From the NCBI RefSeq assembly GCF_002162375.1, contig NZ_CP021425.1, positions 2,725,501-2,789,500 on the forward strand: a DNA stretch of 64,000 bases, read 5' to 3'. This stretch comes from Oleiphilus messinensis. Its GTDB lineage: Bacteria > Pseudomonadota > Gammaproteobacteria > Pseudomonadales > Oleiphilaceae. Position numbers and translations under genes: made by a program. The notes under the pieces are model-generated. The model did no database searches and was not told the origin of the DNA. It worked only from the letters and a program-made list of their open reading frames with translations. Of the stretch, positions 36,746 to 46,882 are shown in pieces; the first letter of the stretch is position 1; each line of letters begins with the position of its first letter.

Positions 36746-38401
36746 CTACAGCGCAGGGTGCGCGGAAAGCAGGGTTACGCTTTCCTGAATCAAGTCGGGA
36801 CTCATGCCCGGTCTACCATCAAGGCGAGCCTCGACGGAGTAACTAACCCGATTCACACGACGAAAGTGACGCCAACCGCTCAGAAAATCTAATGATTTTT
36901 CGAGTGGTTGGTACCAACGCTGAAGTTTGTTGTAATACTGATAATCCCCGAGCGCCATCCTTACAGGCGGATGCTCGGTCTTAACGGTACCCTTCGCGTT
37001 AATACCAATGAGTTGTTTTGGCGGCTTTTCTTTGAAGCCATAATGCCGACGACCAATCACTAACGCGGCCGCATGGTGATCTGAGAAACCGTGTCGATCG
37101 CGATATTTCATCCGCCCCAATAATGAGGTATAAGCCGGATTGACGTGATATAGGCGTATGCCGCGTTTAATGCTTTGCGTTTCAATCAAGTCCTTGATCT
37201 TACCGTAAGCAAAGGCATTCAACATGCGGGCATACTGAGGATGATCCTGCTTTTGGTATTGCCGTTTCTTCTGCTGAAAATCCAGCTTTTCGATCACCAC
37301 CGCTTTACCTTGCTGCGCGGCAAAGTCCATCAGGTCTCGTACAGCATCCCCAATAATGGCCGCCCGTTGAGCATCATTCTTATAGTGTAACGGTAAGTCA
37401 AACGTTCGGTGTTGCAGTGGGTTACCGCTTCGATCCAGCTCGACGACCGCTAAGTGGTTCGGGTTGACATCTACACCGATGACACCTTGATCATCATCGA
37501 TCCACTCTGCTTGCGCTGTTGGTCCTGCCACTTCCACGCTAACGAGTAACCGCCAACCTTTTTTGTCTCGCTTAAATCGAAAACTCAGGGGTTGCCCTTT
37601 GATTGATTTATCGAGTTTTTTAACCTGATTCTGCCAAACGGCTTGGGCAATCGCCGCCTTTCCATGCTTGAATTGCAGGCGATCAATGTTAATGGTCGTG
37701 CCAAACGTGGCGCGTAATTGATGGGGCACCAAGAGTTTTAGCTGGTAAGCATCTTCTTGCTCACTGGGCGATAGCTGGGCATTTTGACAGCCCCAGGATT
37801 CATCATGAGAACCCACTAATAGAAATTCACGGTGTCGCGCTTCGTGCCAGCGACATTGCCAATCCCTGATCCCTTCATTGGATTTTAGTGTTTGTCGCTC
37901 TTTCAGCAGCTTTCGACCGCCGAAACAAATGGGGGTTTTATTTTCCTGTTTTTCGGCCACCAAGGCAGCCTGCTTTCGCTGCCAACGACGCAGTTTCACT
38001 TCCTTCTGTCGTAGTGTGTTGCGAAGTTTTTTGGCCTGTTGCGGGCAGCCTTTCTCTGCAACATGATCACAGCGCTTCTCTAGTTTGTTGAGCGTTTTCT
38101 CCAGCTGTTTGATTTTAACTTCCAGCGTCACCAGCCGGTTGTTTCGATTGGTTTGGTAAGACTGGATTAAACCTTTAATGCTTTGCCGGACGCCTTGAAA
38201 CACCCGATAGCTGAACGGCATCCCCATTTCATGCATAAACTGGGTACGACTCAATTGCTGGGCTTTAGGCTTTTGTAAGTTAGCAAACCAATGAAACTTC
38301 ACTTGATTCCACAGCTCGGCATATTGACACAATGCCGCATCCTGCTCATAAATCAAATCAAGTCGGGTTTCAAACGTGAGTGTTTTCGTTGGCGTATCCA
38401 C
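36746..38401 (-). CDS. tnpB: TnpB-related RuvC nuclease without zinc ribbon
   Basis: TnpB proteins are RNA-guided nucleases of IS605/IS607 elements. This 551-residue form is long. A coiled-coil-like basic insert (EVKIKQLEKTLNKLEKRC) sits at about residues 90-150. The RuvC acids are present: Asp in GVIGVDVNPNHLAVVELD (around 310), Glu in AVVIEKLDF (around 371) and Asp in HGFSDHHAAALVIGRR (around 441). The CxxC...CxxC zinc ribbon that normally lies between the last two is missing; the region reads NPAYTSLLGRMKYRDRHGFS. I chose the GTG at 38401, just after the HTH stop and an AAGAG; the frame is open further upstream, to 38500. It belongs to the TnpB-related accessory group rather than classic TnpB. 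Confidence 0.85.
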   Translation of the reverse strand: MDTPTKTLTFETRLDLIYEQDAALCQYAELWNQVKFHWFANLQKPKAQQLSRTQFMHEMGMPFSYRVFQGVRQSIKGLIQSYQTNRNNRLVTLEVKIKQLEKTLNKLEKRCDHVAEKGCPQQAKKLRNTLRQKEVKLRRWQRKQAALVAEKQENKTPICFGGRKLLKERQTLKSNEGIRDWQCRWHEARHREFLLVGSHDESWGCQNAQLSPSEQEDAYQLKLLVPHQLRATFGTTINIDRLQFKHGKAAIAQAVWQNQVKKLDKSIKGQPLSFRFKRDKKGWRLLVSVEVAGPTAQAEWIDDDQGVIGVDVNPNHLAVVELDRSGNPLQHRTFDLPLHYKNDAQRAAIIGDAVRDLMDFAAQQGKAVVIEKLDFQQKKRQYQKQDHPQYARMLNAFAYGKIKDLIETQSIKRGIRLYHVNPAYTSLLGRMKYRDRHGFSDHHAAALVIGRRHYGFKEKPPKQLIGINAKGTVKTEHPPVRMALGDYQYYNKLQRWYQPLEKSLDFLSGWRHFRRVNRVSYSVEARLDGRPGMSPDLIQESVTLLSAHPAL

Positions 38402-38414
38402 TAGGCGATGGCTC

Positions 38415-38543
38415 TTAACGACTATGGTCACCCGGCGTACGGAAATCTGAGAAAAATCGTGATTCTTTTTCCCAGCGACGAAGGGTGGAAACGGCCACAC
38501 CCAGGAGAAAAGCGGCAGCGCCTATCGATAGAAATTCAGCCAT
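38415..38543 (-). CDS. 42-residue MerR-like HTH peptide (IS607 TnpA N-terminus only)
   Basis: The ATG at 38543 lies 8 bases after a strong GGAGG. The product is one MerR-type helix-turn-helix, LSIGAAAFLLGVAVSTLRRW, followed by EKESRFFSDFRTPGDHSR and a stop. The second half matches the RTPGGHRRY wing of IS607 serine recombinases. The catalytic resolvase domain that should follow is absent; tnpB begins 14 bases after the stop. It is either a decayed TnpA or a small DNA-binding protein retained to bind the element end or regulate tnpB. Confidence 0.72.
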   Translation of the reverse strand: MAEFLSIGAAAFLLGVAVSTLRRWEKESRFFSDFRTPGDHSR

Positions 38544-44157: not shown

Positions 44158-45090
44158 GTGAATAAACCTGAAATTAACTTTATGGGCAAACGTAAGTTTG
44201 CTCTCCTGTTTTCTGCGATCTTGTTGGTGGCATCGATCGCATCCCTGGCAGTAAAGGGTTTGGTACTCGGATTGGATTTTACTGGAGGGACGCTGGTTGA
44301 AGTTGAATACCAGCAGGCTCCGGTAATTGCGGATGTCCGGAACCAATTGCTGGATGCAGGGTACGAAAAACTCGTGGTGCAGAATTTTGGTTCTGATACC
44401 AGTATTTTGGTGCGCTTGTCTCAGGATTTCAATGACAAGGTTGGTCAGGAAGTAGTGGCTGTTCTCAACGCCTCGGAGGATGAGGTAAAACTGAAGCGAG
44501 CCGAGTATGTTGGTGCGCAAGTGGGAGAAGAGTTGCGAGAGCAGGGTGGTCTCGGTATGCTCTTCGCGCTTGGTGTGGTTATGCTCTATGTTGCATTCCG
44601 GTTTCAGTTTAAATTCTCTGTCGGAGCTGTAGCGGCCCTTGTGCACGATGTGATCATCACCCTCGGACTATTCTCCATTTTGGGGTGGGATTTTGATCTG
44701 ACGGTGCTGGCAGCCGTGCTTGCGGTTATCGGTTACTCATTGAATGATACGATTGTTGTTTCGGATCGAATTCGAGAAAACTTCCGTCGTGTCCGAAAAG
44801 GAACTCCGGTTGAAATCATCAATACTTCACTAAACGAGACGCTGTCTCGTACTTTAATGACCTCTATCACGACATTGCTTGTGCTGTTTGCCCTTTACTT
44901 CCTGGGTGGGGAGATGATTAATGGCTTCTCAAAAGCGCTGATTATCGGCGTGGTTGTGGGAACCTATTCTTCGATCTACGTTGCGGCGAATGTGCTTCTG
45001 CTTATGGGGATCAGTAAAGATGATTTGCTGGTGCCGGTTAAAGAAGGTGTAGAAGAGGAAGAAGTTGAGGGGGCTGATTTCAGGCCTTAA
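44158..45090 (+). CDS. secF: Protein translocase subunit SecF
   Basis: The partner of SecD. It starts at GTG 44158 after GTGGAG. The 310-residue product has GLVLGLDFTGGTLVEVEYQ in the first periplasmic domain. VIGYSLNDTIVVSDRIRENF is the SecF-specific membrane motif, and INTSLNETLSRTLMTSITTL follows. The acidic tail (EEEEVEGADF) is cytoplasmic. A strong terminator follows 17 bases after the stop. Confidence 0.97.
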   Translation: MNKPEINFMGKRKFALLFSAILLVASIASLAVKGLVLGLDFTGGTLVEVEYQQAPVIADVRNQLLDAGYEKLVVQNFGSDTSILVRLSQDFNDKVGQEVVAVLNASEDEVKLKRAEYVGAQVGEELREQGGLGMLFALGVVMLYVAFRFQFKFSVGAVAALVHDVIITLGLFSILGWDFDLTVLAAVLAVIGYSLNDTIVVSDRIRENFRRVRKGTPVEIINTSLNETLSRTLMTSITTLLVLFALYFLGGEMINGFSKALIIGVVVGTYSSIYVAANVLLLMGISKDDLLVPVKEGVEEEEVEGADFRP

Positions 45091-45107: not shown

Positions 45108-45141
45108 AAAAAAGGCTGGGTGTATCACTCAGCCTTTTTTT
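45108..45141 (+). terminator. Rho-independent terminator after secF
   Basis: AAAAAAGGCTG pairs with CAGCCTTTTTTT around a loop that carries a partial extra stem. The stem ends in a run of seven T. Since the complementary strand starts with A-rich and ends with T-rich sequence, it may also terminate the convergent suhB gene. Confidence 0.9.
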
Positions 45142-45208: not shown

Positions 45209-46009
45209 TCAGACCTTGTCGCGGAATGCGTATAGCTTCTGTAGCAGAGACTTGAATAATTTCGGGTTAGCGCAAACCAGTTGGCCTGAATTGGAGCTGA
45301 TTCCGCCGCCAGATAAATCGCCGAGCAGTCCTCCTGCTTCCTGGCAGATTAAAATTGCAGCCTGGAGATCCAATACATCTGGTTGCAGTTGTACGGCCGC
45401 ATCAATTCGTCCCGCGGCAACGTTGGCGATGTCCAGTATGGGGCAATTCGACTGTTGTAGCGGGAAGTTGTTGTTGCTCAAGCTGTTGTACAGGTCGAAG
45501 CGTACATGGGGAGAGCTAACCATATTTGGGTTGAAGAGTGCGTCGGTTGCAATCAGACACTGGTCAACGGTCTTTGTTGAGCTTACCCGAATTCGCTTGC
45601 CATTCAGGCTCGCGCCCCTGCCTTTGCTCGCCGCATACTCATCCCCGGTTGTCGGGTTAATAATGATTGCGTGCTCTGCTTTCCCTTTGACAAAGCAAGT
45701 TGCAGAAATTGCAGTGTAGGGCAATCCTTTGGCAAAATTTAGTCCGCTATGGATCGGGGTAAGCGACCAGACGGTTTCTTTGTCACTTTCGCTGAAGTCA
45801 GTTTCACCCAGGGCCGCAATGTAATGTTCCGGGAAAGACTTTTTAATGTTCTGGATGAACAGGCGATGGATGTCCTTCTCGATCTGGAGTAGCTTCTTCG
45901 CCAGCATTTCGGGCTCTTCCTGAACGAACTCCTGTCGCTCAATAACCTGTTGCAAAAATTCGCTGGCCTGGCGAAGTGTTCGTGCGGCTATATTTAATAT
46001 GGGTAACAT
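45209..46009 (-). CDS. suhB: SuhB-like protein with lost metal-binding motif
   Basis: SuhB is an inositol monophosphatase that also acts in rRNA transcription antitermination through NusA. The position between secF and trmJ is that of Pseudomonas suhB, and the fold matches over 266 residues (MLPILNIAARTLRQASEFLQ, RGASLNGKRIRVSS, DIANVAAGRIDAAVQLQ, CQEAGGLLGDLSGG). The core motif W-x-I-D-P-L-D-G-T-T-N-F reads WSLTPIHSGLNF, so both Asp ligands are gone (to Thr and His) and GT is SG. The late WD-x-A-G motif reads LDLQAA, keeping Asp. I infer a non-catalytic protein, perhaps keeping only the antitermination role. Confidence 0.9.
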   Translation of the reverse strand: MLPILNIAARTLRQASEFLQQVIERQEFVQEEPEMLAKKLLQIEKDIHRLFIQNIKKSFPEHYIAALGETDFSESDKETVWSLTPIHSGLNFAKGLPYTAISATCFVKGKAEHAIIINPTTGDEYAASKGRGASLNGKRIRVSSTKTVDQCLIATDALFNPNMVSSPHVRFDLYNSLSNNNFPLQQSNCPILDIANVAAGRIDAAVQLQPDVLDLQAAILICQEAGGLLGDLSGGGISSNSGQLVCANPKLFKSLLQKLYAFRDKV

Positions 46010-46102: not shown

Positions 46103-46882
46103 ATGCAAGAAAGAATTCGAGTGGTATTAATGGAAACGTCTCATCCAGGTAATATTGGTGCGGTAGCACGGGCGATGAAGAATATGGATGTTTCCGAACT
46201 GGTTCTGGTAAGACCTGATTCGTTCCCGGATCCAGTCGCGGATGCGAGATCCTCTGGTGCGTTGGATATTCTCGCCAGTGCTCGCGTGGTGGAGAAATTT
46301 GAGGATGCCGTAGCTGATTGTTCTCTGATTGTCGGTACCAGTGCGAGGGGGCGGAGTTTTCCATGGCCCGTTCTGAACCCGCGTGACTGCGCGCTCAAGG
46401 TTCTTGATTCTGCTGCGGCGGATAATAATGTTGCGCTGGTTTTTGGCCGAGAAGATCGAGGATTGAGTAATGAAGAGCTTCAGCGTTGTCATTATCACGT
46501 GCATATCCCTGCGAATCCTGACTATTCCTCGCTAAATTTGGCTATGGCAGTGCAAGTGATCTTGTATGAGATACGAATGAATTCCCTTTTGCGGCTTGAA
46601 AATTCAGATGCAAGTGCATATATCTCACCGGTGACCGGGCCGGATAATAGTGCATGGGATGACGCACCCGCCACATTCGATGAGGTTGAGGGCTATTTTC
46701 AGCATTTGGAGAAAACGTTGGTCGCGATTGGTTTCCATGATCCTGAAAAGCCCAGGCAATTAATGGCCAGGTTGCGCCGGATTTATCAGCGCTGTCATCT
46801 GGATAAAACAGAAGTGAATATTTTACGCGGTATATTGAAAGCCACGAATCGAATGATTTCAAACCAGAGAAACCAGCATTAG
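46103..46882 (+). CDS. trmJ: tRNA (cytidine/uridine-2'-O-)-methyltransferase TrmJ
   Basis: A SPOUT methyltransferase that modifies position 32 of tRNA. The 259-residue product starts IRVVLMETSHPGNIGAVARA, the usual N-terminus. VFGREDRGLSNEELQRCHYH and IPANPDYSSLNLAMAVQVIL form the SAM knot (motifs 2 and 3). The C-terminal extension (about 90 residues) is the TrmJ dimer domain. The gene is followed by cysE and iscR, as in Pseudomonas. Confidence 0.94.
   Translation: MQERIRVVLMETSHPGNIGAVARAMKNMDVSELVLVRPDSFPDPVADARSSGALDILASARVVEKFEDAVADCSLIVGTSARGRSFPWPVLNPRDCALKVLDSAAADNNVALVFGREDRGLSNEELQRCHYHVHIPANPDYSSLNLAMAVQVILYEIRMNSLLRLENSDASAYISPVTGPDNSAWDDAPATFDEVEGYFQHLEKTLVAIGFHDPEKPRQLMARLRRIYQRCHLDKTEVNILRGILKATNRMISNQRNQH

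Follow-up and report, generated by a model that had tools for sequence, protein, structure and literature searches.

Does a SuhB protein whose phosphatase motif has been lost still act as an enzyme and, if it does not, what is its gene kept for? This question is raised by the suhB locus of Oleiphilus messinensis, the genome of which is one contig of 6,379,281 bases. The window referred to below is the whole stretch of 64,000 nucleotides of that contig that was analysed.

The suhB locus

The suhB orthologue lies on the minus strand at 45209..46009 and encodes a catalytically degenerate protein of 266 amino acids, with an ATG start, an intact reading frame and, as the open reading frame was read, a stop codon at 45211-45209. 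It is flanked by secF (44158..45090, plus strand), a neighbour that marks the suhB place and was also used in the species tree, and by an RNA methyltransferase gene (46103..46882, plus strand) that we take, from its sequence and place, to be trmJ. Among relatives, trmJ was found inside the fetched flanks of 58/58 dead suhB loci checked (dead meaning that metal ligands have been lost, as described below) and of 13/18 intact loci, while secF was found in the flanks of 30/58 and 6/18, respectively. A DNA search for secF in E. coli genomes gave a short match only (69%), which was not used.

Against the PF00459 profile the protein scored 108.9 bits (cut-off 27 bits), placing it in the inositol monophosphatase superfamily. 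It missed the equivalog cut-off of NCBIfam NF008027 (135.6 vs 332 bits), as did, by less, the intact SuhB orthologue L019 (327.8 of 332 bits). In a gene tree made by a quick method, where the dead branch is long, it grouped with SuhB and apart from the IMPase paralogue. The initial annotation had called the gene the orthologue at the conserved suhB place, and both the trmJ flanks and the gene-tree grouping agree; a stray paralogue is ruled out by genomic place and gene tree.

Two other features of the window were noted by eye. At 45108-45141, in the gap where secF and suhB converge, an almost perfect inverted repeat carries runs of A and T (AAAAAAGGCTGAGTG...CCAGCCTTTTTT); it resembles a two-way terminator and was absent from the output of the repeat scan. 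Further away, on the minus strand at 36746-38500, a 584-amino-acid open reading frame had no Pfam match over the cut-off, although its motifs resemble those of a TnpB/RuvC-type protein.

Loss of the active site

Residues 84-89 of the protein (45743..45760, minus strand; codons ACC CCG ATC CAT AGC GGA) read TPIHSG in the alignment where DPLDGT is expected, as first reported, so that both metal-binding Asp residues are replaced, by T84 and H87. The register of this motif is not in doubt because the row is ungapped from W81 to P97, and misalignment is thus ruled out, with uncertainty confined to the GEE loop. In that loop, the least certain stretch of the alignment, LGE (residues 67-69; 45803..45811, minus strand) replaces EES, L67 and G68 align with E67 and E68 of E. 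coli, and a Glu is present at position 69. We take E67, D84, D87 and D212 of E. coli SuhB, all confirmed as letters of the printed chain, to be the metal ligands. By this test of an active inositol monophosphatase the protein keeps one ligand of four, D214 (45368..45370, minus strand), the equivalent of D212. The E. coli positions K34, D38, R184, E205 and W211 have also been replaced, the last three by Q186, Q207 and L213. The motif change first reported is therefore one piece of a broader breakdown of the active site. Since metal binding appears from these residues to be lost, phosphatase activity is almost certainly gone.

The fold, as predicted, has been kept. An AlphaFold2 model based on 73 aligned sequences had a pLDDT of 94.4, and its best structural matches were SuhB of P. 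aeruginosa (Z 32) and SuhB of E. coli (Z 31), including the latter in the rrn antitermination complex. Human and other IMPases scored nearly as high, consistent with a shared fold.

Extent of the loss among relatives

SuhB was searched for in 58 genomes (O. messinensis and 57 relatives) and, across the order, in 194 genomes, and a subset of the sequences was read. Of 203 loci, 7 were excluded from the counts (L001 and L002, other genes; L003, L034, L035 and L057, repeat genomes; L130, a fragment), and three further sequences were merged as exact duplicates. Eight of the 45 families read were dead with respect to the ligands (f1, f6, f7, f26, f36, f37, f38 and f44) and 37 were intact, one of these (f12) being read from a fragment only. 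All four ligands were kept in 0/112 SuhBs from dead families vs 81/81 from other families, a contrast far greater than chance would give, and the same counts held for the two Asp residues of DPLDGT. No dead-family sequence kept more than two ligands. Which ligands remain differs by family: D212 is left in 53/112 sequences, D87 in 20/112, D84 in 13/112 and E67 in 7/112.

The family that holds Oleiphilus and Marinobacter, f1, carried suhB in all 39/39 genomes seen, and every copy was dead. All genomes seen were likewise read in f6 (7/7), f7 (2/2), f36 (6/6) and f44 (6/6), compared with 4/7 in f26, 2/6 in f37 and 4/5 in f38; in the intact families mostly one or two genomes were read per family. 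Named sources of dead SuhBs include Marinobacter, Motiliproteus, Neptunomonas, Neptuniibacter, Amphritea, Marinobacterium and an Osedax symbiont (we ourselves assigned the Neptunomonas-like loci to f37), and those of intact ones include Pseudomonas, Halopseudomonas, Zooshikella, Microbulbifer and Gilvimarinus. At E 1e-20, a SuhB match was absent from 15/194 genomes of the order, seven of them in f15 and the others spread across f3, f9, f11, f13, f14 and f39.

The comparison with relatives that had been proposed in the initial annotation thus revealed an old, clade-wide change, and the objection that the change might be limited to one strain falls away. A recent strain mutation or a pseudogene is ruled out by this spread together with the purifying selection described below.

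Number of losses

A species tree was built from SecD, SecF and Tgt of 57 genomes (1254 columns); G063, G080 and G102 were omitted for incomplete SecD, and Tgt was absent at 13/60 loci. In this tree f1, f6, f7, f26, f36, f37 and f38, together with f15, formed one clade (97 bootstrap, 88 SH-aLRT), and f44 was placed elsewhere on a long branch. Two changes between dead and intact labels were required, vs 19 for shuffled labels, and one when f44 was left out. The trees of SuhB itself grouped all eight dead families, f44 included. When 36 active-site and other diverged positions were removed, the dead sequences were still one clade (100/99), the bootstrap being not fully settled. An AU test on a quick species tree did not reject a single clade that included f44 and f15 (p 0.178), and in the careful species tree 0/200 bootstrap trees placed all dead families on one side of a branch. 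The second IMPase-like protein of the dead families, IMP2 (see below), was present in 3/3 f44 genomes. The position of f44 reflects either misplacement, a second loss or a transfer. An independent loss in each family is unneeded, as one or two events suffice on the species and SuhB trees.

The family f15 was represented in the species tree by one genome (G050), which fell inside the dead-SuhB clade and keeps NusA AR1-AR2. All 7/7 f15 genomes seen (G050, G091, G123, G150, G175, G199 and G220) were without a SuhB match at E 1e-20; this family may possibly have lost suhB completely after the enzyme half was lost.

Selection and divergence

Selection on the dead gene was measured in Marinobacter by the Nei-Gojobori method, using only pairs with dS of 0.15-1.2 (138/528 suhB pairs), many of which were near saturation. 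The median dN/dS of suhB was 0.105 (138 pairs), close to the values for secF, 0.108 (44 pairs), and trmJ, 0.073 (22 pairs). In an intact comparison group of Pseudomonas, Halopseudomonas, Microbulbifer and others, the values were 0.158 for suhB, 0.145 for trmJ and 0.252 for secF. The suhB gene is thus under purifying selection in Marinobacter.

Between families the dead proteins have diverged widely. Mean SuhB identity was 31% among eight dead-family representatives vs 61% among eight intact ones, while SecD identity in matching sets was 59% and 57%, respectively. On these alignments, the drift between dead families reaches much beyond the active site. Against this drift, a family-weighted comparison identified positions conserved in dead and intact proteins alike: the N-terminal helix, W81, E112, H113, P119, E124, A127-S128, G130, G132, N136, R139, R141, E222, G224 and G232, as well as, towards the C-terminal end, P247 and K251 (with K and R mixed within f1).

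Features of the transcription role

In E. coli, SuhB binds the AR2 domain of NusA, and the KL251/254AA substitution raises the Kd for this domain from 94 nM to 141 uM (PMC6614801). These contact residues are both kept in O. messinensis, as K253 and L256 of the segment NPKLFKSLL (residues 248-256, aligned with E. coli N246-L254; 45242..45268, minus strand). Position 251 is basic in 112/112 dead SuhBs (K in 69, R in 43, so that strict K holds for only 69/112), and position 254 is aliphatic in 103/112; among intact SuhBs the corresponding counts are 79/81 and 80/81. R184 behaves differently, being lost in 112/112 dead SuhBs and present in 81/81 intact ones. In E. coli work, failure to bind RNAP was linked with failure to complement (PMC6614801), and on this basis the contacts of dead SuhBs may differ from those of E. 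coli.

NusA with AR1-AR2 was found in the 29 genomes readable of 30, including O. messinensis, whose NusA (L318) has 498 amino acids; the domain was recognised by eye in the alignment. Its presence proves nothing about SuhB, because AR2 is also kept in the f15 genome G050, which has no SuhB match. O. messinensis ME102 is reported to have five rRNA operons (PMC5847120). A boxA pattern gave 16 one-mismatch sites in the genome vs 13 for the reversed pattern, with no exact site; the searched sequence gave no 16S rRNA match and so may lack the rRNA regions.

The initial annotation had suggested that selection now acts only for the antitermination role. The active-site loss and the kept NusA-AR2 contact bear this out in part, but the idea that all transcription features of E. 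coli SuhB are kept does not hold, given the loss of R184 in 112/112 and the mean identity of only 31% between dead families.

Other IMPase-family genes

A search of the genome for another inositol monophosphatase, also proposed at the outset, found two further IMPase-family genes, so that O. messinensis has three PF00459 genes: suhB (108 bits), CysQ (over the TIGR01331 cut-off) and a gene that we call IMP2. IMP2 (L001/L264; G000:C1:5123216-5124037) encodes an intact IMPase-like protein with DPIDGT and PWD motifs. By eye, it adjoins an apparent aminotransferase gene.

At E <=1e-69, with 45-64% identity, IMP2 was found in 21/27 dead-family genomes, in 0/12 intact-family genomes and in 0/1 f15 genome. 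The six dead-family genomes that have suhB and no IMP2 match at E 1e-69 are G025, G031, G084, G061, G072 and G209. Among 369 genomes of the class, a sample for which the number of other dead-family genomes was not given, three matches passed E 1e-70 (G000, G071 and G107), all from dead families. Nine other class-wide matches, at E 1e-45 to 1e-49, look by sequence like ordinary SuhBs; 8/9 grouped with SuhB in the tree, with L299 at the base. The IMP2 proteins themselves formed one clade outside SuhB (support 100; long branch, quick method). The flanking sequences of 21 IMP2 loci contained neither trmJ nor secF, so IMP2 and suhB are not neighbours.

Two of the genomes without an IMP2 match, G025 and G031 (f1, genus g8), each have just two genes of the PF00459 family, which encode the dead SuhB and a presumed CysQ. 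Because a presumed CysQ is their single other PF00459 gene, IMPase chemistry may be dispensable in them.

Explanations for the dead SuhBs

We consider it likely that SuhB was converted long ago and clade-wide from an enzyme plus Nus factor to a Nus factor only. Metal binding would have been lost once, or twice counting f44, in the ancestor of a large clade within the order that holds Oleiphilus and Marinobacter and, by assignment, Neptunomonas, Amphritea and others. The dead protein, which is predicted to fold like SuhB, would have been retained as a structural Nus factor. It probably dimerises; its C-terminal NP(K/R)xx(K/R) helix would dock on NusA AR2, and it would help NusB/NusE to join RNA polymerase on rRNA leaders. 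Action at rRNA operons via NusA AR2 as a Nus factor only is the most likely role. It agrees with work in E. coli, in which suhB mutants have a growth defect that is not linked to the loss of IMPase activity (PMC4807359, PMC6614801).

Where phosphatase activity is needed, it probably comes from the intact IMPase-like IMP2 encoded elsewhere in the genome. Whether the whole amounts to a clade-wide split of a moonlighting protein, with SuhB a pure rRNA-transcription factor and the chemistry passed to IMP2 of the same families, is in our judgement an even question for the genomes sampled.

An extension of the Nus-factor-only reading, rather than a competitor, is that suhB was duplicated in the same ancestor to give IMP2, which would be a textbook case of functions divided between two copies. 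We regard this as doubtful. Retention is reciprocal: SuhBs of dead families keep K/R at 251 in 112/112 without the full ligands, and IMP2 keeps all ligands in 21/21 with K/R at 251 in 1/21 and an aliphatic residue at 254 in 1/21. In the genomes sampled, IMP2 was also found in dead families only. However, an IMPase that is not a SuhB would lack the NusA patch anyway, and since the gene tree places IMP2 outside SuhB (on a long branch, by a quick method), a separate origin or a transfer is just as likely as a duplication.

A different view is that the site has been re-arranged for a new catalytic or ligand-binding role, for instance through the acidic residue 69, and is changed rather than dead. 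The column of E69 is indeed acidic in 64/71 f1 sequences, and position 212 is D in 53/112 and E in 39/112 dead SuhBs. Against this, the former active-site columns vary by family (position 84 is F, D, N, S, E, M, H and others). There is no new active-site pattern shared among families, as expected for loss and not for a new activity. We think a new role very improbable.

Dead SuhB could alternatively work mainly as a pseudoenzyme partner of IMP2, which it would regulate or stabilise within a heteromer, and not as a Nus factor. The distribution of IMP2, in 21/27 dead-family vs 0/12 other genomes, would fit such a partnership, as would the dimers formed by E. coli SuhB (PMC6614801). Yet suhB is present in six dead-family genomes that gave no IMP2 match at E 1e-69, suhB is not adjacent to IMP2 at any of the 21 IMP2 loci, and the K/R at the NusA contact, unneeded for a role of this kind, is kept in 112/112. 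We therefore think a heteromer very improbable.

Least credible is that drift removed catalysis once inositol-phosphate hydrolysis was unneeded and that the gene, left without a strong function, is decaying. This could be read from the fast divergence between families and from the seven f15 genomes, none of which gave a suhB match at E 1e-20. Against it, frames are intact, the place is kept, dN/dS in Marinobacter is about 0.1, like that of the neighbours, and 39/39 f1 genomes keep suhB.

Implications

The Nus-factor-only reading makes these families a natural experiment, in which over eight families the enzyme half would be gone and SuhB still kept in place under selection. In the literature consulted, the dispensability of the SuhB phosphatase for its cellular role has so far rested on E. 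coli mutants. Should the reading be correct, members apparently without IMP2 would show that the only general essential role of SuhB is at rRNA operons. Dead SuhBs would also be clean tools for separating the two roles, and they map the residues that the transcription role may need: the basic residue at 251 apparently yes, R184 apparently not. For annotation, genes of Marinobacter and its relatives that carry the name 'inositol monophosphatase' probably do not encode enzymes.

No catalytically dead SuhB lineage was found among the matches listed in a literature search of partial coverage, which is a weak negative. Bifunctional SuhB is already known; the clade-wide loss of one of its functions looks new.

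Comparison with known systems

SuhB of E. coli is an inositol-1-monophosphatase with demonstrated IMPase activity (PMC4807359), as well as a Nus factor. The O. messinensis protein is like E. coli SuhB (2qfl, 6ib7, 6ib8, 6tqn) in its fold, with Z about 31 at 28-29% identity, and the two share the N-terminal helix, W81, an ASRGxGAxLN-like block and a C-terminal NPxxxKxxL helix. It is unlike E. coli SuhB in that E67, D84, D87 and R184 have been replaced. The closest solved relatives are those of P. aeruginosa SuhB (8wip, 8wdq, 9j90; Z 31-32, 30-32% identity), one of which, 8wdq, was solved with D-myo-inositol-1-phosphate, as its title states. Unlike the O. messinensis protein, the named Pseudomonas and Halopseudomonas SuhBs that were read keep all four ligands. 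In pseudoenzymes generally, the subject of two reviews (PMC10211241, PMC5106787), the catalytic motif is lost while the fold and a binding role are kept, much as appears to have happened here. The dead SuhBs would differ from these in that a known bifunctional protein has lost its enzyme half only, and has done so over a whole bacterial clade.
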